DNA from: Methylobacterium sp. PvR107
GTDB lineage: Bacteria > Pseudomonadota > Alphaproteobacteria > Rhizobiales > Beijerinckiaceae
Direction: 5' to 3'
Length of the DNA stretch: 64,000 nucleotides
Assembly: GCF_017833295.1 (NCBI RefSeq)
Contig: NZ_JAFIBW010000001.1
Span: 3,300,001-3,364,000 of the forward strand
Within the stretch, counting starts at the first letter, position 1; each line of letters starts with the position of its first letter. Position numbers and translations under genes: made by a program. Positions 2,092-30,562 of the stretch are shown here, piece by piece. The notes beneath the pieces were generated by a model, which saw nothing but the letters and a program-made list of their open reading frames with translations, was not told the origin of the DNA and made no database searches.

Positions 2092-3831
2092 CTACTCGTC
2101 CGGGCGGACCGCCTGACCGCCCCGGTCGATCGGCAGGCTCGGGCCCTTCAGCTCGGAATCGCTCGGCAAGGCGCGCACGTCCCAGCCGCCGCCGAGCGCC
2201 CGGATCAGCGTCACCGCCGCGGTGAAGCGGCTCAGCCGCACCTGAAGGGCGTTGACCTCGTTGGTCACCAGCAGGTTCTGCGCGGTCACAACGGTGGTGA
2301 AGTTCTGGGTGCCGGCCCGGTACTCGTTGAGGGTGATCTCCACGGCCTTGCGCGACAGGTCCACGGCGGTGTCCTGCGCCCCCTGCTGCTGGCCGAGGAT
2401 GCGCAACGCCGCCATCTGGTTCTCGACCTCCGCGAAGGCGGCCAACACCACCTGCCGGTAATTGGCCACCGCGGCGTCGTAGCCGGCCTCGGCCGAGCGC
2501 AAGGCCGCCGTGCGGGCGCCGCCGTCGAACAGCACCTCGCTGCCGGAGGCCGCCACCGACCAGACCTGATTGGCCGCCGAGAGCAGGCCGTTGCGGGTCG
2601 CCCCCGAGATGCCGCCCTGGGCCGAGATCGTCACGGTCGGGAAGAAGGCCGCCACCGCCACGCCGATACGCTCGCTCTGCGCCTGGACGAGCCGCTCGGC
2701 CTGGGCCACGTCCGGCCGGCGCTCCAGGAGATCGCCCGGGATCCCGACCGGTACCCCGGGGGGATTGCGCCCGATGCCGGCCACCGGGATCGACACCTCG
2801 GAGGGGGGCCGCCCGATCAGGGTGGCGATGGCGTTGACGTATTGCACCCGGGTCAGCCGCACCGCGATGGCCTGGGCCTGGATGGTCTGGACCTGGGTCT
2901 GGGCGGTGATCACGTCGGAGCGGGCCGCCACGCCGGCGGCGTACTGGTTCTCGGTGATCGCCAGGGTCTTCTTGAAGTTCTCGACATTCTCGTCGAGCAC
3001 CTTCTGCAGGGCATCCGCGTAGCGCACCGTCAGGTAATCGGCCGCGATCTCGGCCTGGATGGACAGGCGGGTCAGCGCGATCGTGGCGGCGTCGGATTGC
3101 GCCAGCGCCGCCTCGCTCTCGATGTTGCGGCGGGTGCCGCCGAACAGGTCGAGTTCCCAGCTCGCCTGGCCGATCAGCGCCACGTTGGTCCGCGTCGTGG
3201 TGCCGCTGCCGGTCCGGGTGATGCTCGGCGCGCCGATCACCGTCGGATACAGGGCGGCCTGCGCGGAGGCGACCAGCGCCCGGGCCTGCCGGTAATTCGC
3301 CACCGCCTGCCGGAGCGACTGGTTGTCGACATCGACCAGCCGGATCAGCCGGTCGAGCGTCGGATCCCGGAACACCCGCCACCAGTCGCCGCGCTCGACC
3401 GCATCGCTCGGACGGGCCTCGCGCCAGCCCTTCTTGCGCGCCGCGACATAGGCCGGGCTGTCCTCCCGGACACCGCCCTGCTTGTAGGCGAACGGCGTCT
3501 CCACGGAGGGCCGGGCATAATCGGGCCCGACCACGCAGCCGGCGAGGAGCGGGGCAGCGAGGAGGAGGGATGCGAAGGTGCGCGACGCTTTCCAACCTCC
3601 CTCTGCGGGGGAGGCTACCCTGCGCGGCAGGGGGGGAGAGGGGCAGCGCGACGGGGCAGGTTTCGGCGCCTGTGGCGACCTTTGCGGCACCGTCGCTCCC
3701 CTCTTGCGGGACTGCATCCCGGCCCGACCCTCGCCGACGCGCGGGCCACCCTCCCACGCAAAGGGGGGAGGAGGGGTGAGCGCGCGCGCGCTCATCGCCG
3801 CCGCTGTTTCACGTGAAACCTTAACCATCAT
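2092..3831 (-). CDS. NodT-family outer-membrane efflux lipoprotein with a repeat-derived N-terminal extension
   Basis: This is the TolC-like channel of the MdtABC-type pump. The canonical part starts at the lipobox LLAGC (Cys at residue 99 from the ATG at 3831), followed by VVGPDY, the usual NodT mature N-terminus, and two outer-membrane efflux domains. From that Cys the protein is 481 residues, the family's normal size. The ATG at 3831 overlaps the mdtC stop (ATGA), which suggests translational coupling. No start codon lies directly before the signal peptide. Residues about 18-79 are encoded by a copy of the ~190-bp dispersed element, so the signal peptide sits ~80 residues inside the frame. 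Met39, inside the element, is an alternative start. Whether the lipoprotein is still exported is uncertain. Confidence 0.85.
   Translation of the reverse strand: MMVKVSRETAAAMSARALTPPPPFAWEGGPRVGEGRAGMQSRKRGATVPQRSPQAPKPAPSRCPSPPLPRRVASPAEGGWKASRTFASLLLAAPLLAGCVVGPDYARPSVETPFAYKQGGVREDSPAYVAARKKGWREARPSDAVERGDWWRVFRDPTLDRLIRLVDVDNQSLRQAVANYRQARALVASAQAALYPTVIGAPSITRTGSGTTTRTNVALIGQASWELDLFGGTRRNIESEAALAQSDAATIALTRLSIQAEIAADYLTVRYADALQKVLDENVENFKKTLAITENQYAAGVAARSDVITAQTQVQTIQAQAIAVRLTRVQYVNAIATLIGRPPSEVSIPVAGIGRNPPGVPVGIPGDLLERRPDVAQAERLVQAQSERIGVAVAAFFPTVTISAQGGISGATRNGLLSAANQVWSVAASGSEVLFDGGARTAALRSAEAGYDAAVANYRQVVLAAFAEVENQMAALRILGQQQGAQDTAVDLSRKAVEITLNEYRAGTQNFTTVVTAQNLLVTNEVNALQVRLSRFTAAVTLIRALGGGWDVRALPSDSELKGPSLPIDRGGQAVRPDE
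3596..3780 (+). repeat. ~190-bp dispersed element, copy A (inside the nodT-type gene)
   Basis: Same family as the copies at 10425-10623 and 14642-14829. The left end (cctccctctgcgggggagg) is nearly the reverse complement of the right end (accctcccacgcaaaggg), so the element has inverted-repeat termini. A central dyad (gcgggactgcatcccg) is shared with the other copies. Read on the minus strand it is open in the nodT frame and encodes SRKRGATVPQRS, matching SRKRGATLPERS from copy C. Confidence 0.85.
3805..3820. promoter_or_regulatory. parS-like ParB-binding palindrome
   Basis: The 14-bp perfect palindrome gtttcacgtgaaac lies at 3806-3819. On the minus strand the 16-mer is GGTTTCACGTGAAACA, which matches the bacterial parS consensus TGTTTCACGTGAAACA at 15 of 16 positions. 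It lies within the first codons of the nodT-type gene (encoding VSRET) between the mdtC stop and repeat copy A. parS sites commonly sit inside genes. Function is inferred from sequence match only; no parA or parB gene is in the window. Confidence 0.62.
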
Positions 3832-6800
3832 TCCCCGGCCGGCAGCGCCGCTTCTCCGCCCCGTCCGGCGCGCCTGCGACGGTTGAGCACCCTGTGCCGG
3901 AGGCGATCGAGGGTGAGGTAGACGACGGGGGTGGTGTAGAGGGTCAGGATCTGGCTCACAATCAGGCCGCCGACGATGGCGATGCCGAGCGGCCGGCGCA
4001 GCTCCGCGCCCTCGCCGTTGGCCAGGATCAGCGGCACGGCGCCGAGCATGGCCGCCAGCGTCGTCATCATGATCGGCCGGAAGCGCAGGAGACAGGCGTC
4101 CCGGATCGCGTCCACGGGATTCGCGCCCCGGGTCCGCTCGGCGTCGATCGCCACGTCGATCATCATGATCGCGTTCTTCTTCACGATGCCGATCAGCAGG
4201 AAGACGGCGATCAGCGCGATGATGGTGAAGTCGGTGCCGGTCACCAGCAGGGCGAGCACCGCGCCGACGCCGGCCGAGGGCAGGGTCGAGAGGATCGTCA
4301 GCGGGTGCACGAAGCTCTCGTACAGGATCCCCAGCACGGCGTAGACCGCCAGGATCGCCGCCAGGATCAGCAGCGGCTGCCGCGAGGCCGAGGCGACGTA
4401 GTTCTTGGCCGCGCCGGCATACTCGCCGTGGATCGTGGCCGGCAGATGCAGGGAGGCCATCGCCCGGTCGATGGCCTCGGTGGCGTCCGACAGGCTCTTG
4501 CCCGGCGCGAGGTTGAACGAGATCGTGGTCGCCACGAACAGGCCCTGGTGGCTGACCTGCACGGGGGCGTTCCCCGGCTCGATCCGCGCGAAGGCCGAGA
4601 GCGGCACCATCGTCTCCTTGGCGGCCGAGACCGGGGCGCTCGACGAGGCGCCGCCCTTGGAGGCCGCGATCGCGTTGGAGGAGGCATTGCGGGCCGAGTC
4701 GGAGGCGATGGCGGCGGCATTCGACGCCGTGTCGGCCGTGCTGGCCGAAGCCGCCGCGGCCGCCGCGCCGGTGCTGCCGGAGGCGGCGCCGACCGCGCCG
4801 GTGCCGGTGGCGGCGCCCGCACTGGTGGCGGACGACGCGCTACCCGGGCTGCTCGTGCCGGTTGCCGCGTTGGTGTTGACGCTGCCGCCCGCCGCGACCG
4901 TGCCGGCGACCGCGTTGGTGGTCGCCGAGCCGGCCGCGTTGCCGCCGGAGGTCGAGACGTAGATCTGCTTGAGCGTCTCCGGCGTCTCCAGGTAGCGCGG
5001 CGCGATCTCCATCACGACGTGGTACTGGTTCAGCGGGTTGTAGATCGTCGAGACCTGGCGCTGGCCGAAGGCGTCGTAGAGGGTGTTGTCGATCTTGTTG
5101 GGGGTGATGCCGTAGCGGAACGCGGTCGCCCGGTCGATCACCACCCGGCTCTCCAGCCCGCCCTCCTGCTGGTCGGAGGTCACGTCCGCGAAGGTCGGGT
5201 CCTTCTGCAGGGCGGCGAGCAGCTTCGGGGCGGCGGCGAACAACTCCTCGGCGGTGTCGCCCTGGAGGGTGTACTGGTACTGTGCGAAGCTCTGGCGGCC
5301 GCCCATCTGCAGGTCCTGGCGGGGGAAGACGTAGAGCCGCGCGCCCGCAACCTGGGCGAGCTTCGGCCGCAGCCGCGCCATCACGGTGGAGATCGGCGCC
5401 CGCTCGCCCAGCGGCTTCAGCCCGACGAACACGTTGGCCGAGTTGGTGCCGCGCCCGCCTGTGAAGCCGACGACGCTCTCGACCGCCGGATCGGCGCCGA
5501 CGATCGCGGTCGCCTGCTTGAGCTTCTTCTCCATCGACTGGAACGAGATGCGCTGGTCGGCCTGGACGCCGCCCATCATCTGGCCGGTATCCTGCTCGGG
5601 GAAGAAGCCCTTCGGGACGATCACGTAGAGGTAGACATTGAGGCCGACCGTGGCGAGCAGGCTCAGCAGCACGAGGCGCGGATGGGCCAGCGCCACCGCG
5701 AGGGTCCGCGCGTAGGCGCCGAGCAGCCGGTTGAAGCCGCCCTCCAGGATCCGGATCAGCCAGTTCGGCCGGCGCCCTGCGGCGGGGGCGCCGTCCGGAC
5801 CGTGACCTTCGGCCCGCAGCAGCCGGGCGCACATCATCGGCGTCGTGGTGAGCGACAGCACCAGCGAGATCAGGATCGACAGCGACAGGGTGACGGAGAA
5901 TTCCTGGAAGATCCGGCCGACGAGGCCGCCCATCAGCAGGATCGGCAGGAACACCGCGATGAGCGACAGGCTCATCGAGATCACCGTGAAGCCGACCTCC
6001 CGGGCGCCGATCAAAGCCGCCTGGAGCCGGGGCTTGCCCTCCTCGATGTGCCGCTGGACGTTCTCCAGCACCACGATGGCGTCGTCGACCACGAAGCCGG
6101 TGCCGATGATCAGCGCGGTCAGCGACAGGATGTTGAGCGAGTAGCCGAGCAGGTACATCGCCGAGAAGGTGCCGATGATCGAGATCGGCACGGCGACCGC
6201 CGGGATCAGCGTGGCCCGCCAGGAGCGCAGGAAGCCGAACACCACCAGGATCACGAGGCCGACCGCCACCAGCAGCGTCTCCTCGGTGGCCGAGAGCGAG
6301 GCGCGGATCGTGGCGCTGCGGTCGCCCGTGAGCTTGATGTCGATGCCGCCGGGGAGCGCCGCGGTGATCTGCGGCAGCGCCTCCTTCACGGCGTTGATGG
6401 TCTCGACCACGTTGGCGCCGGGCTGCTTGTAGACGAACAGCAGCACGCCCGGCTCGCCGTTGACGATGCCGAGGTTGCGCTTGTCCTCGACCCCGTCGAG
6501 CACCTGGCCGACATCGGTGAGCTTCACCGCCGCGCCGTTGCGGTAGGCCACGATGATGTCGCGGTAGTCGGCGGCCTTGCGGCCCTGGTCGTTGGCGTAG
6601 AGCTGGTAGCGCCGGTCGCCGACGTCGATCTCGCCCTTGGGCGAGTTGGCATTGGCGGAGGCCAGAGCCGCTCGGATGCCTTCGAGGCCGATGCCGTAGT
6701 TGAACAGCGCCGTGGGATCGAGCTCGACCCGCACCGCCGGCAGGGACGAGCCGCCGATATCGACATTGCCGACGCCGGGCAGCTGCGACAGCTTCTGCTG

Positions 6801-7286
6801 CACCACGGTGGCGGCGGAATCGTAGACCTGGCCGCGGGTCAGGGTCTGCGAGGTCATGCCGAGGATGATGATCGGCGTGTCGGCCGGGTTGAACTTCCGG
6901 TAGGTCGGGTTCTGCCGGAGCGCCGCCGGCAGGTCGGCGCGCGCCGCGTTGATCGCCGCCTGGACGTCGCGGGCCGCCCCGTCGATGTCGCGGTTGAGGC
7001 CGAACAGCAGCACGATCCGGGTGGAGCCCAGGGTGTTGGTCGACGTCATCTCGTTGACGTCCGCGATGGCGCCGAGCCGCCGCTCGAGGGGCGCCGCCAC
7101 GGTGGCCGCCATGGTGTCGGGCGAGGCGCCGGCCATCTGCGCCTGGACGAGGATGACGGGGAAGTCGATCTGCGGCAGCGGCGCCACCGGCAGCTTCAGG
7201 AACGCGAACAGGCCGGCGAGCAGCACGCCGATCGTGAGCAGCGTGGTCGCGACCGGCCGCCGGATGAACGGCTCGGAGATGTTCAC
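3828..7286 (-). CDS. mdtC: RND multidrug transporter subunit, MdtC-like
   Basis: A 1152-residue inner-membrane proton/drug antiporter, second RND subunit of the operon. It begins [17 protein letters not shown] at a GTG (7284-7286) overlapping the mdtB stop (GTGA), which decides the start. Typical RND features are the N-terminal membrane helix, [16 protein letters not shown] with the proton-relay Asp pair in TM4, and the repeated second half with [18 protein letters not shown]. It is about 110 residues longer than MdtC homologues because of an Ala/Ser/Thr/Gly-rich stretch at about residues 780-890 in the second periplasmic loop, just before [13 protein letters not shown]. Its stop overlaps the nodT-type start. 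A heteromeric MdtB2C pump is inferred from the E. coli family. Confidence 0.93.
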
Positions 7287-10200
7287 GGCAGCGCCTCGCC
7301 GGCCGCGAGGTCGGGCCCCCGCCGCCCGGAAATCCGCCGCTCCAGCCGGTCGAACGCCAGATAGATCACCGGCGTCGTGAACAGGGTCAGCACCTGGCTG
7401 ACGATCAGGCCGCCCGCGATGCAGATGCCGAGCGGCTGGCGCAATTCCGAGCCGACGCCGGTGCCGAGGATCAGCGGCACCGCGGCGAACAGGGCCGCCA
7501 GCGTCGTCATCAGGATCGGCCGGAAGCGCAGCAGGCAGGCCTGGAAGATCGCCTCGCGCGGCTCCAGCCCGTCCTCGCGCTCCGCCTGGAGCGCGAAGTC
7601 GATCATCATGATCGCGTTCTTCTTCACGATGCCGATCAAGAGCACGATGCCGATCACCGCGATGATGTCGAGCGACAGGCCGAACAGCATCAGGCCGAGC
7701 AGCGCCCCGATCCCCGCCGACGGCAGGGTCGAGAGGATCGTGATCGGGTGGATGAAGCTCTCGTAGAGCACGCCCAGAACGATGTAGACGGTCACGATCG
7801 CCGCCAGGACCAGGAACAGCTCGTTGCCGAGCGCCGATTGGAAGGCGAAGACCGAGCCCTGCGGCACCACCCGGAACGAGGGCGGCAGGCCGATCTCGGC
7901 CTTGACCTGGTCGATCGCCTCGACGCCCTGCCCGAGGGCGGCGCCCGGGGCGAGGTTGAACGACACCGTGGTGGCCGGGAACTGGCCGAGATGCGAGATC
8001 AGCAGCGGCGCCCGCCGCTCGCTGATCCGCGCCACCGCGGAGAGCGGCACCTGCCCGTTCGCCGCCGTGGAGGAGGGCAGGTAGATCGCCTCGAGGCTGC
8101 GCAGGGTCGTGTGCAGCTTCGGGTCGGCCTCCAGGATCACCCGGTACTGGTTCGACTGGGTGAAGATCGTCGAGATGATCCGCTGGCCGAAGGCGTCGTA
8201 GAGGGCGTTGTCGATGGTCGCCGGGGTGATGCCGTAGCGGCCGGCGGTGGGCCGGTCGATGGTCACGTAGGCGGCGAGCCCCTGGCCCTGGTGGTCGCTG
8301 GCCACGTCGGTGACCACGGGCGACTTCGCCAGCGCCTCGGTGAAGCGCGGCACCCAGGTCTCGAAATCGTCGATGTTCGGGCTCTCGAGGATCACCTGGT
8401 ACTGGGTCGCCGAGACCGCGGTGTCGATGGTCAGGTCCTGGACCGGCTGCATGTACAGCCGCATGCCGGGCTGGTTGGCGGCGGCTGCCGAGATCCGCCG
8501 GATGATCGCGCTGGCCGAGGCGGTGCGCTCCTCCCGGGGTTTCAGGTTGATCAGCATCCGGCCGGAATTGAGCGTGACGTTCTGGCCGTCGACCCCGATG
8601 AACGACGACAGGCTGGCGACGTCCGGATCCTTGAGGACGATCTCGGCCATGCGCTGCTGGCGCTCGGCCATCGCGGCGTAGGAGACCGACTGGTCGGCCT
8701 GCGTGATCCCCTGGATCACGCCCGTGTCCTGCACGGGGAAGAAGCCCTTGGGGATCACGACGAACAGGTAGGCGGTGAGCGCCAGCGTGCCCAGGGCCAC
8801 CAGGAGCGTCAGGCCCTGGTGGTCCAGCACCACCCGCAGCGAGCGGCCGTAGGAATCGATGGTGCCGTCGATGGCGCGGCGGCCGAGGCGGGCGATCGCG
8901 CCCTCCCGGCGGTGGCGGGGCTCGGCCTCGGGCACGTGCTTCAGGAGCCGCGCGCACAGCATCGGCACCAGGGTCAGCGACACCACCGCCGAGATGATGA
9001 TCGTGGCCGCCAGTGTGATGGCGAATTCGTGGAACAGCCGCCCGACCACGTCGCCCATGAACAGGAGCGGGATCAGCACGGCGATCAGCGAGACGGTGAG
9101 CGAGATGATGGTGAAGCCGATCTCGCGGGAGCCCTTGAGCGCCGCTTCGAGCGGCGAGTCGCCGGCCTCGACGTGGCGGGCGATGTTCTCGATCACCACG
9201 ATGGCGTCGTCGACCACGAAGCCGGTGGCGATGGTCAGCGCCATCAGCGACAGGTTGTCGAGGGAGAAGCCGTAGAGGTCCATCACCGACAGGGCGCCGA
9301 CCAGCGACAGCGGCACCGACAGGCTCGGGATCAGGGTCGCCGACAGGCTGCGCAGGAACAGGAAGATCACCAGCACCACGAGGGCGATGGCGAGGCCGAG
9401 CTCGAACTGCACGTCCTCCACGGAGGCGCGGATCGTGGTGGTCCGGTCGGTGAGCGGCGCCACCGCCACGGCGGCCGGCAGGCTCGCCTGCATCTGCGGC
9501 AGCAGCGACTTGATCTTGTCGACCGTGGCGATGACGTTGGCGCCCGGCTGGCGCTGGATGTTGAGGATCACCGCCGGCGTCGCGTCGGCCCAGGCGCCGA
9601 GCTTGGTGTTCTCCGGCCCCTCGACCACGTCGGCGACCTCCGAGAGCATCACCGGGGCGCCGTTGCGGTAGGCGATGATCGCCGAATCGTAGGCCTTCGG
9701 GTCGCGGATCTGGTCGTTGGCGTTGATCGCGTAGGATTGCTTGGGCCCGTCGATCGTGCCCTTGGGCGTGTTGACGTTGAGGTTGGTGATGGTCGTGCGC
9801 AGGTCGTCGATGTTCAGCCCGTAGGCGGCGAGCGCCCTTGCGTTGAACCGGACCCGCACGGACGGGCGCTGCCCCCCGGAGATGCTCACGAGGCCGACGC
9901 CCGCCACCTGGCTGATTTTCTGGGCGAGCCGCGACTCGGCGAGGTCGCGCACCTGGGTGAGCGGCAGGGTCTTGGAGGTCAGCGCCAGCGTCAGGACCGG
10001 CGCGTCGGCCGGGTTGACCTTGGCGTAGATCGGCGGCGCCGGCAGGTCGGAGGGCAGCAGGTTGCCGGCGGCGTTGATCGCCGCCTGGACCTGCTGCTCG
10101 GCGATGTCGAGGGACAGGTCCAGGCTGAACTGCAGGGTGATGACCGAGGCGCCCGCCGAGGATTGCGAGGTCATCTGGTTGAGGTTGGCGAGCTGACCGA

Positions 10201-10411
10201 ACTGCCGCTCCAGGGGGGCCGTGACCGAGGAGGTCATCACCTCGGGGCTCGCGCCCGGATAGAAGGTCTGGACCTGGATCGTCGGATAGTCGACCGCCGG
10301 CAGCGCCGAGACCGGCAGGTTCAGGTACGACACGCCGCCGACGATCAGGATCGCCAGCATCAGCAGCGTCGTGGCGACCGGGCGGAGGATGAAGAGGCGG
10401 GACGGGTTCAT
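7283..10411 (-). CDS. mdtB: RND multidrug transporter subunit, MdtB-like
   Basis: A 1042-residue RND antiporter of normal length. It starts [18 protein letters not shown] at the ATG 10409-10411, with GGAGAAGG about 12 bases upstream; the longer frame to 10594 only translates the repeat element. TM4 carries [15 protein letters not shown] and the second half [18 protein letters not shown]. It lies between the membrane-fusion gene and mdtC, and its stop overlaps the mdtC GTG start. In E. coli the MdtB subunits form the proton-coupled part of a heterotrimer with MdtC; the same is inferred here. Confidence 0.94.
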
Positions 10412-10424
10412 GACAGGCGCGCCT

Positions 10425-10623
10425 TCTCCCTCCCACCCCTGCGGGGGCGGGTACCCTGCGAAGCAGGGGAGGAGAGGGGCGCGCCGGTGCAGGAGAGGGT
10501 ACCGCCCTTCATGAGGGGCGCGCCCAGTTCGGAAGCGTCGCTCCCCCCTCGCGGGACTTCGTCCCGACCCGACCGCTGCTGACGCAGGGGCCACCCTCCC
10601 CCGCAGAGGGGGGAGGGAGTGAG
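10425..10623 (+). repeat. ~190-bp dispersed element, copy B (between mdtA and mdtB)
   Basis: This copy fills almost all of the 238-bp gap between the mdtA stop and the mdtB start. It shares with copies A and C the inverted-repeat ends (right end ccctcccccgcagagggggg), the gcgggtaccctgcg block after the left end and the central dyad gcgggacttcgtcccg. Its middle (about 10475-10535) diverges from the other two. In the mdt transcript it would form a long hairpin between two pump genes and could uncouple or tune their expression. Confidence 0.85.
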
Positions 10624-10649
10624 GCGGCTATCGCGCGCCAGAACCGCGC

Positions 10650-12041
10650 TCACTGCGCCTGACGGCGCCGGTGCCGACGACCGCCCTCCGCTGTCCCTTG
10701 GGAATCCGCCGCCGCGTCGGCCGGCGCGCCGGGCTTCACCTCACCCTTGCCGTCCGGCTTGGCCTCGGCGGCCTTGTCACCCCCGGCCGCCTGCGCGCCC
10801 TCGGTGATCCGCACCGGCGCGCCGTCCTTCAGCCGGTCGGTGCCGTCCGTGACCACTCGGTCGCCCGGGTTCAAACCGGAAGCCACCACCGTGCTGGTCC
10901 CGTCGGTCTCGCCGGTCTTGATCGGCCGGACCGTGACCTTGCTGTCCCCGTCCATCAGGTAGACGTAGGTGCCCGGCGTGCCCTGGAGCAGGCTGGAATT
11001 CGGCACCAGCGTCGCGCCCCGCACCGTGTCGACGGTCAGCTTGGCGTTGACGAACTGGTTCGGGAACAGCTCCTCGTCGGCATTGTCGAACAGCGCGCGC
11101 AGCTTCACCGTCCCGGTGGTCGTGTCGATCTGGTTGTCGACCGTGTCGAGCCGGCCGTTGGCGATCTCGTGGGCGTCGCCGCGGTCATAGGCCCGCACCG
11201 TCAGCTTGGCGCCCGCCCGCACCTGCCGCATCACCCGCGCCACGTCGTCCTCCGGCAGGGTGAACACCACCGAGATCGGGTGAAGCTGGGTCACCACCAC
11301 GATCGCCGTCGAGGCGGCCGAGATGTAGTTGCCCTGGTCGACCTGGCGCAGGCCGACCCGGCCCTCCACCGGCGACGTGATGTGCGTGTAGGCGATATTG
11401 AGCTTCTGCTGATCGACCAGCGCCTGGTCGGCCGCGACCGTACCCTCGTTCTGCTTCACGAGGGCGCCTTGCGTGTCGACGTTCTGCTTCGAGATCGAAT
11501 CCTGCCGGTTCAGGGTCTGGTAGCGCTGGAAGTCGAGCTTCGAGTTCTGCAGCAGCGCCTGGTCGCGGGCGAGCTGGCCCTGGTACTGGGCGAGCAGCGC
11601 CTCGTAGGGCCGCGAATCGATCTGCGCGAGCTCGTCGCCCGCCTTGACGGTCTGGCCCTCGCGGAACTTCACCTGCGTGAGATAGCCGCTGATCTGCGAC
11701 TTCACCGTCACGGTGGCGAGCGGCGTCACCGTGCCGAGGCCTTGGAGAATCACCGGCATGTCGCCGGTCGTGACATGCGCGATGCCCACCGCCTGCGGCA
11801 TCTCGGCGCCGCCATGCCGGCCGCCGCGGCCGCCGCCTTTGTGGGCCGTGGCGGGCTCCGCGCCCTTGTCGGTGCGGGCCTCGTACCAGCGATGGCCGAT
11901 CGCCCCGGCGCCGGCGACCAGCACCAGGATCACGAGCCAGCGGATCGGCCGGAACCGCCGCCTGCGGACGTCGCGCGCGGGCGCTTCGCCGGGCTGGTAG
12001 GCGCGGGCGGTGTCGGTCCGGATCGGTGAACTCTCGTTCAT
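10650..12041 (-). CDS. mdtA: RND periplasmic adaptor (membrane fusion protein), MdtA-like
   Basis: A 463-residue adaptor linking the MdtBC pump to the outer-membrane channel. It has a cytoplasmic N-tail, one membrane anchor at about residues 34-50 (WLVILVLVAGAGAIG), a barrel-sandwich/lipoyl part beginning VKSQISGYLTQVKFREGQ, an alpha-hairpin rich in Gln and Lys, the second lipoyl half (ITSPVEGRVG), a beta-barrel and a polar C-terminal tail. It is the first gene of the mdtA-mdtB-mdtC-nodT operon. No two-component or TetR regulator gene is adjacent, so control is unknown. Confidence 0.93.
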   Translation of the reverse strand: MNESSPIRTDTARAYQPGEAPARDVRRRRFRPIRWLVILVLVAGAGAIGHRWYEARTDKGAEPATAHKGGGRGGRHGGAEMPQAVGIAHVTTGDMPVILQGLGTVTPLATVTVKSQISGYLTQVKFREGQTVKAGDELAQIDSRPYEALLAQYQGQLARDQALLQNSKLDFQRYQTLNRQDSISKQNVDTQGALVKQNEGTVAADQALVDQQKLNIAYTHITSPVEGRVGLRQVDQGNYISAASTAIVVVTQLHPISVVFTLPEDDVARVMRQVRAGAKLTVRAYDRGDAHEIANGRLDTVDNQIDTTTGTVKLRALFDNADEELFPNQFVNAKLTVDTVRGATLVPNSSLLQGTPGTYVYLMDGDSKVTVRPIKTGETDGTSTVVASGLNPGDRVVTDGTDRLKDGAPVRITEGAQAAGGDKAAEAKPDGKGEVKPGAPADAAADSQGTAEGGRRHRRRQAQ

Positions 12042-12337
12042 GCCTGACTAGAGCACAGGACGGTCACGTGCGCGACCGATTGCACCCTATCCCTCACTGT
12101 CCAAACCCCCATGTCCGGTCTCCGCGGTGCCGCATGCTGCCGCGGCCCGAAGACCTCGCCGAAGCCCACCCTCCCGTCGGGACGGCGGCGGCGCCGATCC
12201 CGCAGGAGGAGCGTAAGCCCATAAAGCTGTCCGGGACCCGAACGGCTCCTTACCGCGGCGACATGGCCACCGGGCGGCCTCGATCGTGCGGGCTCCTCGG
12301 TGCCTGCCCAATGCGCCGTCACTAGGGCGGCGAGGTT
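12042..12337. other. Intergenic region upstream of mdtA
   Basis: About 300 bp between the mdtA start and the small membrane-protein gene. It must hold the mdt operon promoter, but I could not pick -35/-10 boxes with confidence. Reading frames here have arginine- and proline-rich translations typical of shadow frames in GC-rich DNA. Nothing else is recognised. Confidence 0.4.
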
Positions 12338-12508
12338 TCAATCGTGTTGCTGGGGGCCGCCGGCCGGCGCCGCGTAGGCGCTGAGCACCGCGCGGAACGC
12401 CGCATCCACGGGCGTGACCGGCAGGGCGCGGCGCAGGCCGAGCCCGGCACCGCCGAGCAGGACGGCCAGGATCAGGCAGCTGAGAACGTCGCGCGCCGTC
12501 ATCCGCAT
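12338..12508 (-). CDS. Small single-span membrane or secreted protein, unknown function
   Basis: A 56-residue frame starting MRMTARDVLSCLILAVLL. Residues 8-24 form a clear hydrophobic segment, followed by an amphipathic C-terminal part (PVDAAFRAVLSAYAAP). The hydrophobic pattern and the position downstream of a terminator-like hairpin and candidate RNA make it more credible than the shadow frames around it. No family is recognised. It could be an unprocessed anchor or a cleaved signal sequence. Confidence is moderate because it is short and no strong ribosome site is visible. Confidence 0.45.
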   Translation of the reverse strand: MRMTARDVLSCLILAVLLGGAGLGLRRALPVTPVDAAFRAVLSAYAAPAGGPQQHD

Positions 12509-12555
12509 GTCGGCTCCCGAATGCCGCTCCGGCGATCGGGACGGCCGGCTCCGGA

Positions 12556-12673
12556 CATGACGAAAGGGCCACCGACCCGCAAGTCGATGGCCCTTCGTGA
12601 GGACCGGAGCGGCACCCCGCTGACGGGGCGAGGGGGCGAAGCCCCGCCGGCGAGAGCGCCGCTCCGACCGTGT
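12556..12673 (-). ncRNA. Candidate structured small RNA or attenuator leader
   Basis: Read on the minus strand, a TTGACT box (12700-12705) and a TAGGTT box (12678-12683) are separated by 16 bp. About 5-10 bases later begins a strongly paired stretch. An outer stem GGAGCGGC/GCCGCTCC encloses two hairpins (GGGGC-ttc-GCCCC and CCCCG-tcag-CGGGG). It is followed by a 13-bp terminator-like hairpin (AAGGGCCATCGAC paired with GTCGGTGGCCCTT) ending in a short T run. The architecture fits a ~115-nt sRNA, or a leader attenuating the downstream small ORF. No known family is recognised. The prediction is from base pairing by eye. Confidence 0.4.
12558..12597 (-). terminator. Rho-independent-type hairpin ending the candidate RNA
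   Basis: A 13-bp stem with a 6-nt loop (ttgcgg) and one wobble pair, followed on the minus strand by a short T run that partly lies in the stem (CCCTTTCG). It is 50 bp upstream of the small membrane-protein start, so it ends an independent RNA or acts as an attenuator. Confidence 0.55.
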
Positions 12674-12873
12674 TCTCAACCTACGATACGAGTGATGAAA
12701 GTCAACATTCGTCAGCCGGTTGTTGGGCCCGCCGGATGGCGTCTGTGCGGATGCGCACGTTCCGCGCGTGACGGGCCCGGATTCCGTCCATCCTCCGTCG
12801 CATGCTACAGGCCGACGATGCCGAGATCCCTCGCGACATCTCCCGCCGCACTCGACCTGCCGTGCCGCGCCGC

Positions 12874-14028
12874 ATGAACCCGGTCTTCGACACCCTGCCC
12901 ACGACCGTGTTCGAGACCATGTCGCGGCTGGCACGGGTTCACGGCGCGATCAATCTCGGCCAGGGCTTTCCGGACGATCCCGGGCCGGAGGACGTGCGTG
13001 AACGGGGCGCGCGGGCGCTCCTGGACGGCTGGAACCAGTATCCGCCGATGATGGGGCTGCCGTCCCTGCGGGAGGCGGTCGCCGCCCATTACGCGCAGCA
13101 TCAGGGGCTCACGCTCGATCCCGAGACCGAGGTGATGGTGACCTCCGGCGCCACCGAGGCGCTCGCCGGCGCGCTGCTGGCCCTGATCGAGCCCGGCGAC
13201 GAGGTCGTGCTGTTCGCGCCCATGTACGACGCCTACCTGCCGCTGGTCCGGCGTGCCGGCGGCGTGCCGCGGATCGTCGCCCTGCAGCCCCCTGCCTTCC
13301 GCCTCGACGAGGCCGCCCTGGCGAACGCGTTCGGGGATCGTACCCGGGTCGTGGTGCTGAACAATCCGCTGAATCCGAGCGCCACCCTGTTCGTCCCGGA
13401 GGACCTCGACCTGCTCGCCCGCTACTGCCGGCGCTTCGACGTCACGGCGCTGTGCGACGAGGTCTGGGAGCACGTGGTGTTCGACGGCGCCCGCCACCGG
13501 CCGCTGATGGCGCTGCCCGGGATGCGCGAGCGGACGGTCAAGATCGGTTCGGCCGGCAAGATCTTCTCGCTCACCGGCTGGAAGGTCGGCTTCGTGATGG
13601 CCGATGCCCGGCTGATGCGCGGGCTCGCCAAGGCGCACCAGTTCCTCACCTTCACGACGCCGCCGAACCTCCAGGAGGCGGTGGCCTACGGCCTGGCCAA
13701 GCCGCCCGCGTGGTTCGACGCCATGCGGGCGGGCTATGCCGCCTCCCGCGACCGGCTGGCCGGCGGCCTGCGCGATCTCGGCTTCCGGGTGCTGCCGGCC
13801 GAGGCCACGTGGTTCCTCAACATCGACATCGCGGACCGCGGCTACGCCGACGACACGGCCTTCTGCGAGGCGCTGGTCACCCGCCACGGGGTGGCGGCGA
13901 TTCCGGTCAGCGCCTTCTACCCGGACGCCTCCGTGCGCAGCCTCGTGCGCCTGTGCTTCGCCAAGGCGGACGCGACCCTGGACGCGGCCCTCGACCGGCT
14001 GCGCGGCGTTCCCGGGAGGGCGGCGTGA
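12874..14028 (+). CDS. PLP-dependent aminotransferase, class I/II (YbdL-like)
   Basis: A 384-residue fold-type I aminotransferase. The start MNPVFDTLPTTVFETMSRLA and the INLGQGFPDDPGP stretch are those of the methionine/kynurenine aminotransferase subgroup. The PLP-binding region VTSGATEAL, the cofactor-anchoring NNPLNPS (normally NNPHNP), and SAGKIFSLTGWKVGF with the Schiff-base Lys near residue 228 are visible. Upstream starts back to 12802 only add low-complexity residues. It is followed 90 bp later by a DUF4112 gene on the same strand. Substrate (methionine, aromatic 2-oxo acids or glutamine) cannot be read from the sequence. Confidence 0.88.
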   Translation: MNPVFDTLPTTVFETMSRLARVHGAINLGQGFPDDPGPEDVRERGARALLDGWNQYPPMMGLPSLREAVAAHYAQHQGLTLDPETEVMVTSGATEALAGALLALIEPGDEVVLFAPMYDAYLPLVRRAGGVPRIVALQPPAFRLDEAALANAFGDRTRVVVLNNPLNPSATLFVPEDLDLLARYCRRFDVTALCDEVWEHVVFDGARHRPLMALPGMRERTVKIGSAGKIFSLTGWKVGFVMADARLMRGLAKAHQFLTFTTPPNLQEAVAYGLAKPPAWFDAMRAGYAASRDRLAGGLRDLGFRVLPAEATWFLNIDIADRGYADDTAFCEALVTRHGVAAIPVSAFYPDASVRSLVRLCFAKADATLDAALDRLRGVPGRAA

Positions 14029-14118
14029 CGCGGCGGTTCCTGACGGACGCGTTCCTTGCGGGGATCCGGTGCGGGGGCCACATCGTTGGGCAGGATGGCT
14101 TCCCGACGGACCCCGACC

Positions 14119-14613
14119 ATGGATTTCACCCAGGCTCCCCGGGCCGGGCACTTCACCCGGACCGAGACCTTTCCCGGCGGCAAGGCGCCCTCCGGCGCGC
14201 GGCCGCCCTTCCTGTCGGCCGATCTCAGCCAGGAGGCGAGCCTCGCCCGGCTCGAGACGCTGGCGCACCTGATGGACACGGCCTTCGTGATCCCGGGCAT
14301 CAACCGGCGGGTCGGGTTCGACGCGCTGATCGGCCTCGTGCCGGTGATCGGCGACGTGGCCGGCATGGTGATCTCGTCGTACATCGTCTACGAGGCCAAG
14401 CGCCTCGGGGCGCCGCGCTGGCTGCTGGCCCGGATGGGGCTGAATGTCGCGTTCGACGGGCTGATCGGCGCGGTGCCGGTTGCGGGCGACTTGTTCGATG
14501 CCGCCTTCAAGGCGAACCGACGCAACGTCCGTCTGCTGCGCCGCTGGCTGGAGCGCAGCGGCGGCGTGCGCCCGACCGAGATCGACGGCATCGCGACGCG
14601 GATCGACGGCTGA
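14119..14613 (+). CDS. DUF4112 membrane-associated protein
   Basis: About 164 residues from MDFTQAPRAGHF; an alternative ATG lies at 14095. The DUF4112 core is recognisable: LAHLMDTAFVIPG, then RVGFDALIGLVPVIGDVAGMVIS, and the repeated DGLIGAVPVAGDLFDAAFKANRRN. The two (L/V)(I/V)G.(V/I)P..GD motifs lie in short hydrophobic hairpins likely to enter the membrane. Function of the family is unknown. It ends just before repeat copy C. Confidence 0.8.
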   Translation: MDFTQAPRAGHFTRTETFPGGKAPSGARPPFLSADLSQEASLARLETLAHLMDTAFVIPGINRRVGFDALIGLVPVIGDVAGMVISSYIVYEAKRLGAPRWLLARMGLNVAFDGLIGAVPVAGDLFDAAFKANRRNVRLLRRWLERSGGVRPTEIDGIATRIDG

Positions 14614-14641
14614 GCATCTCAGGGCTCTCAGATCTCGGCAC

Positions 14642-14829
14642 CTGCCCTCTCCCCTTTGCGGGGGCGGGTACCCTGCGCAGCAGGGGGGGAGAGGGGCGGC
14701 GCGACGCTGCGGGTCTTGGCGCCCGCTGCGACCTCTCCGGCAACGTCGCTCCCCGCTTGCGGGACTTCGTCCCGGCCCGACCCGGCCTGACGGCCGGACC
14801 ACCCTCCCCGGCAGAGGGGGAAGGGCGGA
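14642..14829 (+). repeat. ~190-bp dispersed element, copy C (upstream of yejE)
   Basis: This copy has the same end blocks and the central dyad gcgggacttcgtcccg, identical to copy B. It ends about 30 bp before the yejE start codon, so it occupies the leader where a promoter would be expected. It translates on the minus strand to SRKRGATLPERS followed by [11 protein letters not shown], close to the peptide that copy A contributes to the NodT-like protein. Confidence 0.85.
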
Positions 14830-14860
14830 TGCGCTCTGCGAGGTTCGGGAGACCCCAGCG

Positions 14861-16072
14861 ATGAACGAAGTCGCCCGTCCCGGCGAGAGCGAGGTCGTGC
14901 CCGCGCCGATGCCCGGCGCCCAGCCGATCGTCCTGCGTCCGGATGAGGGCGTGTCCCCGCCGCCCGCCCCGGCCGGACGCCGCGGCCTGTCGCCGCTCAA
15001 CCGGCGGCGCCTCGACAATTTCCGCCGCAACCGCCTCGGCTATGGGTCGTTCCTGATCTTCGCCGCCCTGTTCATCCTCAGCCTGTTCGCCGAGTTCATC
15101 GCCAACGACCGGCCGATCCTGCTGTCCTACAAGGGCGAATGGCTCGTCCCGGTGCTGGTCGATTATCCGGAGGAGAAATTCGGCGGCTTCCTCGCGCAGA
15201 CCGATTACCGTTCCGCCGAGATCCGCAAGGAGATCGCCGAGAACGGCTGGGCGCTGTGGCCGCCGATCCGGTTCTCCTACGACACGATCAACGAGGACCT
15301 GCCGACGCCCTCGCCGTCGCCGCCGACCTGGATGCTTTCGGATGCGCAGTGCCGGCCGGTGGCGGAGAAGCTCGGCGGATCGAGCTGCGCCGACATCCCC
15401 TGGCACTGGCTCGGCACCGACAACACGACCCGGGACGTGCTGGCGCGGGTGATCTACGGGTTCCGCATCTCGGTGCTGTTCGGCCTGATCCTGGCGGCGA
15501 TCTCCTCGGCGATCGGCGTGGTGGCCGGCGCCGTGCAGGGCTATTTCGGCGGTTGGGTCGATCTCGCCTTCCAGCGCTTCATCGAGGTCTGGGGCGGCAT
15601 CCCCACGCTCTACCTGATCATCATCATCTCGGCCTTCATCGCCCCGGGCTTCTTCGTGCTGCTCGGGATCATGCTGCTGTTCTCCTGGGTGTCGCTGGTC
15701 AGCGTCGTGCGCGCCGAGTTCCTGCGCGCCCGGAACTTCGAATATGTCCGGGCCGCCCGGGCGCTGGGCCTGTCGAATATCCGGATCATGGCCGTCCACC
15801 TGCTGCCGAACGCCATGGTGGCGACGCTGACCTTCCTGCCGTTCATCCTGAACGGCTCGATCACCACGCTGACCTCGCTGGATTTCCTCGGCTTCGGCCT
15901 GCCGCCGGGCTCGCCTTCGCTCGGCGAACTCCTCGCCCAGGGCAAGGACAACCTGACGGCCCCCTGGCTGGGGCTGACCGGCTTTCTGGTCATCGCCGTG
16001 ATGCTGAGCCTGCTGGTCTTCGCCGGAGAGGCGGTGCGGGACGCGTTCGACCCACGCAAGACCTTCGCCTGA
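14861..16072 (+). CDS. yejE: Peptide ABC transporter permease YejE
   Basis: A 403-residue inner-membrane permease of the oligopeptide (microcin C-type) ABC importer. Similarity to YejE is plain: LNRRRLDNFRRNRLGYGSF, then LFAEFIANDRPIL, FGGFLAQTDYR, and the permease core with EFLRARNFEYVRAARALG, the loop contacting the ATPase. It ends GEAVRDAFDPRKTFA. A ~35-residue insertion before WHWLGTDNTTRDVLARV carries two Cys. The family normally sits in yejABEF; neither yejA, yejB nor the ATPase yejF is adjacent, so its partners must be encoded elsewhere or be lost. Confidence 0.92.
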   Translation: MNEVARPGESEVVPAPMPGAQPIVLRPDEGVSPPPAPAGRRGLSPLNRRRLDNFRRNRLGYGSFLIFAALFILSLFAEFIANDRPILLSYKGEWLVPVLVDYPEEKFGGFLAQTDYRSAEIRKEIAENGWALWPPIRFSYDTINEDLPTPSPSPPTWMLSDAQCRPVAEKLGGSSCADIPWHWLGTDNTTRDVLARVIYGFRISVLFGLILAAISSAIGVVAGAVQGYFGGWVDLAFQRFIEVWGGIPTLYLIIIISAFIAPGFFVLLGIMLLFSWVSLVSVVRAEFLRARNFEYVRAARALGLSNIRIMAVHLLPNAMVATLTFLPFILNGSITTLTSLDFLGFGLPPGSPSLGELLAQGKDNLTAPWLGLTGFLVIAVMLSLLVFAGEAVRDAFDPRKTFA

Positions 16073-30521: not shown

Positions 30522-30562
30522 CTCCCTCCCCCGCAGAGGGAGGAGGGCGCGTCGCGTTTCGC
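30522..30562. repeat. End fragment of the ~190-bp element family
   Basis: The sequence ctccctcccccgcagaggga matches the right end of copies B and C (ccctcccccgcagaggg), but the rest of the element does not follow. It may be a solo end or a remnant in the 250-bp ftsH-tauE gap. Confidence 0.45.

Follow-up and report, generated by a model that had tools for sequence, protein, structure and literature searches.

The window (the whole 64,000-nucleotide stretch of DNA that was analysed) is part of a 6.36-Mb single contig of Methylobacterium sp. PvR107. Three copies of a palindromic element, referred to here as A, B, and C and assigned to a family termed F1, lie at or near the ends of transport genes (Table 1). 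The ATGATG of the OEP gene overlaps the stop of the RND gene. At B, an open reading frame opens on a GTG that overlaps the adaptor stop (GTGA) and closes on a TGA that overlaps the RND start (ATGA). The corresponding frame at C, which would start at CTG, spans the interval between the CTGA of the DUF4112 stop and a TGA that overlaps the permease start (ATGA).

Several other features were observed in the window. The adjacent RND genes (3828-10411) share stretches of 72-86% identity and perhaps arose by tandem duplication. At the start of the OEP gene lies TGTTTCACGTGAAAC (3805-3819), which is kept in whole or in part at site A in many relatives and resembles the ParB site parS. A short tandem repeat with a 15-bp unit is located at 1551-1617.

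Table 1. Palindromic copies, frames, and neighbouring genes in the window.
Feature	Position	Strand	Remarks
OEP outer-membrane efflux gene, with element-bearing N-terminal extension	2092..3831	-	PF02321
Copy A, palindromic element in the N-terminal extension of the OEP gene	3592..3772	-	OEP frame open in relatives
RND transporter gene (AcrB family)	3828..7286	-	PF00873
RND transporter gene (AcrB family)	7283..10411	-	PF00873
Putative relay ORF at B, 82 codons with stop	10408..10653	-	frame stop-free in 21/21 genomes; presumably translated
Copy B, palindromic element at the junction of the HlyD-like adaptor gene and the first RND gene	10428..10617	-
HlyD-like periplasmic adaptor gene	10650..12041	-	PF16576
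DUF4112 gene upstream of C	14119..14613	+	PF13430
Putative relay frame at C, 85 codons with stop	14610..14864	+	stop-free in 16/19 anchored genomes
Copy C, palindromic element at the junction of the DUF4112 gene and the ABC permease gene	14645..14825	+
ABC transporter permease gene downstream of C	14861..16072	+	PF00528

The F1 palindrome family

A search with the 22-nt arm (at most 3 mismatches) returned 73 matches in the own genome (37 forward, 36 reverse) and 0 for the reversed control; the three copies pointed out in an earlier note on this DNA are genuine members of a dispersed repeat family. The positions and common orientation given in that note also hold, as its coordinates lie near those of the core arms in Table 1. 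Identity to B across the common right-hand 98 nt is 80% for A and 81% for C. A strict two-arm pattern is found in 23/59 same-genus genomes, including the own genome (control 0), and 141 distinct F1 copies with paired arms were gathered. Among at least 80 record titles listed, holders of an exact arm match are almost throughout Methylobacterium, the others being Methylorubrum, Microvirga arvi, and a Methylobacteriaceae MAG. No match was obtained in Rfam for the window at gathering scores or in the plasmid collection searched. One further F1 arm lies in the window at 30526-30547 on the plus strand, with no listed partner.

F1 is an imperfect, modular palindrome of ~190 bases made up of two complementary arms with sub-hairpins, whose stems are variable in sequence yet self-complementary. 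Terminal inverted repeats, as expected of a miniature inverted-repeat transposable element (MITE), are present, and the size and many dispersed copies agree with those of the Rickettsia palindromic elements (RPEs; palindromes of ~100-200 bp). The order of modules is an outer hairpin (CCCTCCCCC-CTCTGC-GGGGGAGGG), a second hairpin with a variable stem (H2), a GAGAGGGG segment, a variable middle, and then the mirror image; an 18-nt hairpin of the GGGACGAAGTCCC type is optional. Two motifs singled out in the earlier note find a place in this scheme by eye. The TACCCTGCG block is present and corresponds to the second hairpin of one arm. The GCGGGACTTCGTCCCG dyad is likewise present, as an optional 18-nt hairpin that is missing from many copies, but it lies beside one arm and is not central as had been described.

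The H2 stem has at least 4 bp in 173/204 parsed arms (78/282 arms were unparsed), with 102 distinct H2 sequences that include CCCTGC/GCAGGG, CCGGCC/GGCCGG, and CCCTCGC/GCGAGGG. In the 84 copies with both arms parsed, the H2 pairing is long with short in 59, short with short in 18, long with long in 1, and of another length in 6; most F1 pairings thus join a long-loop arm (GTCA) to a short-loop arm (GAA/GGA). The spacing of the arms is quantised, being 139, 148, 157, or 166 in 74/111 copies. A symmetric pairing count on the 172-nt copies (own pairing 0.63, cross-copy 0.69) failed because the arms are unequal in length, and was replaced by the inner-hairpin count. A lone outer hairpin is seen by eye where relatives keep the whole element, namely at B (G037, G049), A (G043), C (G020), and in Lhr (G025), which points to collapse between the arms.

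Copies inside protein genes

A crude codon-usage gene finder placed 10/111 copies within ORFs. Pfam-supported hosts are DNA ligase, penicillin amidase, a BchM-like methyltransferase, CobN, an ImuB-like protein, and an Lhr helicase; of the remaining in-ORF copies, L169 is without a Pfam match and L075 is the site-A case. Inserts within genes carry motifs of F1 and of other palindrome families, F2 (CCCTCTCCCGCACGGGAGAGGG-type), F3 (CTCCCCCTTGTGGGGAGGAG-type), F4 (CTCTCCCCGCGCGCGGGGAGAGG-type), and F6 (CATTGCGAGCGAAAGCGAAGCAATCCAG-type). F1 and F2 motifs occur together in the in-gene inserts L210 and L270, and L196 looks nested by eye.

Three host genes were compared among orthologues using 30 loci per gene, reference included (the best of the genomes matched). 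In Lhr, 29/29 anchored loci are equal in length mod 3 and stop-free, with a palindrome motif in 22; ligase is in frame and stop-free in 28/28 (motif in 18), and the acylase in 21/22 (motif in 5). Pooled, 78/79 anchored loci, and 44/45 of those that carry a palindrome motif, keep the frame without a stop. This rate is far above one in three and bears out, for these genes, the RPE-like insertion in frame that the earlier note had suggested, here in unrelated conserved protein genes. In Lhr, the insert (aa 184-247) separates the DEAD domain from the Helicase_C domain and immediately follows the first aligned block of the solved Lhr-like helicase 5v9x. In the penicillin acylase of one genome (L225, G025), an F1 insert is off phase and adds a stop, a natural broken copy whose phase loss was confirmed by the frames of the conserved blocks.

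The peptide encoded by these inserts was probed in seven ligase orthologues, in which pairwise differences within the element number 241, 243, and 275 at codon positions 1, 2, and 3, against 0/0/93 and 30/30/183 in the flanks. The conservation at peptide level claimed in the earlier note is therefore not borne out in this one gene, as the codon positions vary about equally, and the bias to synonymous sites that the note had proposed to look for is hardly visible at the third position in the seven copies. A conserved encoded peptide, as in the RPEs, was accordingly not found in these seven copies of one gene. A and C do yield related peptides on the minus strand, but the similarity stems from the palindrome; the minus strand is sense to the OEP gene for A and antisense to the flanking genes for C. 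It could be argued from this similarity, and from the recurrence of LPPPSAGEG...PPSPAEGGG across several host proteins, that selection maintains a peptide encoded by the element, either a conserved RPE-like peptide or a functional small protein, whose usefulness lets the element spread. This view is highly improbable given the even variation in ligase, the use of different frames at different sites (PPPSAGEG in Lhr; SPLCGGG or LPPLRGR at ileS-lspA), and the swapping of unrelated families at one site.

A coding design intrinsic to the element was also considered and rejected, as convergent and divergent copies are no more open than shuffled sequence and the arm spacing is 1 mod 3 in only 108/141 copies and 33/57 further copies.

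Reading frames at gene junctions

The spacers at sites A, B, and C were read in 20 fetched relatives as well as the window. At site A, the spacer length is 2 mod 3 and the OEP frame is stop-free in 21/21. The nearest in-frame ATG, GTG, or TTG in the window lies inside the element, 52 codons upstream of the valine that comes after the lipobox cysteine; barring the use of a different start codon, the A element is N-terminal coding sequence. The corresponding start in L068 lies 99 codons before, besides one that is 4 codons away. At site B, the GTGA-to-ATGA frame is open throughout (Table 1), the remaining frames carry stops in most long spacers, and the spacer length is 1 mod 3 in 18/21, with an upstream anchor that is approximate in the most distant genomes. 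The 3 exceptions among the 19 genomes anchored at site C (L076 and L080 being left out) use a different downstream start, so that the anchor falls within the gene. The element was described as non-genic in the earlier note, which does not fit A, B, and C, as each sits in a frame that is kept open across relatives and is presumably translated.

Three further sites of the own genome were compared in the genus, each in its 27-30 best loci among matched genomes. Two of them, S1 and S2, are the tandem copies that come first by coordinate (chosen with partial results known beforehand), and the third, S3, is a divergent copy. S1 lies between ileS (PF00133, PF08264) and lspA (PF01252). These genes overlap at GTGA in 6/30 loci, and F1, F2, F3, F4, or F5 motifs are found in 18/30. 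The frame ending at the TGA that overlaps the lspA start is open in 16/17 spacers of at least 150 nt and begins at the ileS-stop GTGA in 14/17; open spacers reach 430 nt, with F1 and F3 motifs together. The exceptions are L433 (805 nt), which is not open, L420, which is off phase beside a G-run, and L427, which has no in-frame GTGA. No phase is kept at S2, where residues 0/1/2 occur in 10/7/4 of 21 anchored loci (27 loci) and, among 15 longer spacers, the frames are open in 3, 7, and 5; the downstream gene has a conserved GAGAAGG, resembling a ribosome-binding site, ahead of its start. Similarly, no frame is kept at the divergent S3 (residues 8/15/7 of 30; open 15/1/5 of 30), where only some spacers contain a palindrome. 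S2 and S3 serve as negative controls for the frame rule.

When A, B, C, and S1 are pooled, the site frame is open in 52/53 spacers of at least 150 nt, compared with 21/106 for the other sense frames (counted across sites, Fisher test); this tally pools species of shared descent, so the p-value is illustrative. Some copies that would be called intergenic thus appear to follow the same frame rule as those in genes, by an N-terminal extension at A and elsewhere mostly by a stop-to-start relay. F2-F6 were observed to alternate with F1 at A, B, C, Lhr, ligase, and ileS-lspA (L061-L080, L194-L433), sometimes with two per spacer. Comparison of relatives shows that unrelated families replace each other at fixed sites. 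It is the site and not the element that sets the frame, given that convergent and divergent copies are open at shuffle level.

The simplest alternative is that F1 is an ordinary intergenic MITE or REP-like repeat, in which open frames simply follow from a G+C-rich palindrome with few stops. Consistent with this, 101/111 copies are outside called genes, and the antisense of tandem spacers is often open too (65/91, vs. 78/91 for sense). Such a repeat would not be expected to behave as observed at A, B, C, ileS-lspA, and the three genes, however: the coupled sites tested keep one frame in nearly all genomes and across unrelated families, the other sense frames of long spacers hold stops in 85/106, and convergent or divergent copies, as well as their shuffles, are 52-61% open per frame. 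This explanation is consequently considered improbable.

The generality of the rule was assessed in clusters, defined as sites common to at least 2 copies (A, B, C, and S1 included). With ungapped anchors, length differences are all 0 mod 3 in 15/19 co-directional clusters outside genes and in 0/3 convergent or divergent ones. Because lengths are nearly equal in several pairs and gapped anchors are noisier, the length test serves as supporting evidence only. Ungapped anchors give mixed residues at site A (11/28 zero) and Lhr (54/66 zero) and wrongly score L225 as in phase. Gapped anchors give non-zero differences for L085/L160 and L111/L185 and zero for the divergent L106/L126, and ungapped anchors give the reverse.

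An approximately independent set of 129 copies, filtered for orthologues only among the first 141 copies, contains 13 copies in called genes, 85 in co-directional, 24 in convergent, and 5 in divergent positions, and 2 at locus edges. Of these co-directional spacers, 28/85 have both the D+0 and the D+1 frame closed. In this set, spacers are relay-open in 32/55 cases with a start overlapping the upstream stop vs. 10/30 without (p=0.041), and a Shine-Dalgarno-like motif is found in 18/42 relay-open spacers vs. 30/43 others (p=0.016). An open frame is associated with a downstream start overlapping TGA in the set containing orthologues (p=3e-4); no such association is found in 57 further copies (p=0.59) or in the independent 129 (p=0.24). 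The same association is seen in spacers with other palindrome motifs (p=4e-5, orthologues included) and is not significant in palindrome-free control spacers (p=0.07). A start overlapping the upstream stop occurs in 67/89 F1 spacers vs. 26/67 control spacers (orthologues included) and in 18/34 further copies. As some co-directional junctions are not open and others are relay-open, the junction rule fits a large subset of the junction copies and not all of them.

Mobility, related repeats, and interpretation

Direct repeats of at least 7 nt flank 24/141 copies, compared with 14.0 +/- 2.9 in shuffled pairings; for repeats of at least 8 nt, the count is 6/141 against 4.6 +/- 1.7. No match to the Y1 transposase (PF01797, RAYT) is found in the own genome, and PF01797 matches occur in 5/59 genus genomes, with none in 54/59. 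F1 could be a MITE that is mobilised by a transposase with an 8-10 bp target duplication and whose autonomous partner is lost or elsewhere. The complementary arms fit such an element, as do the direct repeats flanking L173, L022, and L028 (two of 10 bp, one of 9 bp). On the other hand, the overall excess of direct repeats of at least 8 nt is weak and their offsets vary, and the transposase is missing from the own genome and unmatched in most of the genus. This account of mobility is plausible but falls somewhat short of probable, and is compatible with the explanation preferred below.

Likening the element to the RPEs, as in the earlier note, is right in kind, in that it is a palindromic repeat with in-frame insertion. 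RPEs are described as palindromes of ~100-150 bp that form several families and interrupt unrelated conserved genes without loss of frame (PMC10969869, PMC2229807), and by that description F1 appears analogous. In contrast to RPEs, the host of F1 is the free-living, G+C-rich Methylobacterium, the peptide in ligase has no sign of conservation, and copies also occupy stop/start junctions as putative relay ORFs. GTAG/CGTC REPs are reported as inverted dimers and heterodimers, between co-directional genes and inside ORFs, in several species; CGTC REPs are said there to prevail in alphaproteobacteria, apparently without a dedicated transposase, and many NH2-terminal REP copies are treated as probably extragenic (PMC3733652). 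By eye, F1 arms are longer and, in the copies and the consensus, have no terminal GTAG/CGTC tag; a CGTC is present in the long F1 arm, within its inner loop. Unlike the NH2-terminal REPs, site A in the window has no ATG, GTG, or TTG between the element and the lipobox. Since the same source reports REPs in ORFs outside Rickettsia, in-frame insertion alone is not new.

Other small repeats differ further. Correia/ERIC-type MITEs are described as small mobile repeats whose ORFs are fused to genes (PMC2229807), whereas F1 is without a clear target duplication. MiniMdi3 of Methylobacterium extorquens shares the genus but is set apart by its description as a MITE of ~400 bp, related to ISMdi3 and present in few copies (PMC2680597). 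The Br-REP1 and Br-REP2 repeats of Bradyrhizobium, described as multi-hairpin intergenic repeats from 3' UTRs and intergenic regions (PMC5082802), resemble F1 in being multi-hairpin and alphaproteobacterial, and the Br-REP1 consensus is a different sequence. Gene pairs that overlap at ATGA or TGATG have also been described, along with their coupling (PMC6728339). Among literature titles and abstracts, mostly of papers outside subscription journals, neither a palindromic family of Methylobacterium that has copies in frame nor relay ORFs at junctions invaded by repeats were found, nor was any exchange of unrelated families under a single frame rule; PMC12306157 does not name Methylobacterium.

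Taken with the frame data, the likely explanation is that F1 is a selfish, frame-constrained palindrome family that acts as a translation relay at coupled junctions and as a linker inside proteins. F1 of Methylobacterium and close kin would be a non-autonomous, probably selfish element, presumably mobile by non-autonomous means, that decays, judging from relatives, by collapse to a single hairpin. Where ribosomes must pass, copies would persist only if one frame stays open, as is seen at seven sites. Copies within proteins would yield an unconserved linker peptide, and some junction copies would yield either an N-terminal extension or a relay ORF that opens on the upstream stop and closes on the downstream start. 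Translation of the relay ORF would maintain termination-reinitiation coupling and may shield the hairpin-rich RNA from Rho-dependent polarity; because the relay would do both, selection would act on the continuity of translation and not on the peptide. A more specific reading, towards which the balance tips slightly, is that selfish palindromes in coupled junctions, including ileS-lspA, are kept as putative ribosome relays, that is, as junk ORFs without a selected peptide, with at least 5 families interchanged. According to this relay reading, unrelated families can be interchanged at junctions because only uninterrupted translation matters.

These findings extend in-frame palindromic DNA to a large free-living genus. 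They also provide a natural replicated experiment on the survival of insertions in coupled operons, in which one junction has accepted many unrelated inserts and retained an open frame, and the value of translational continuity between genes thereby becomes directly testable. Furthermore, genomes of this kind may contain misannotated gene starts and "intergenic" spacers.
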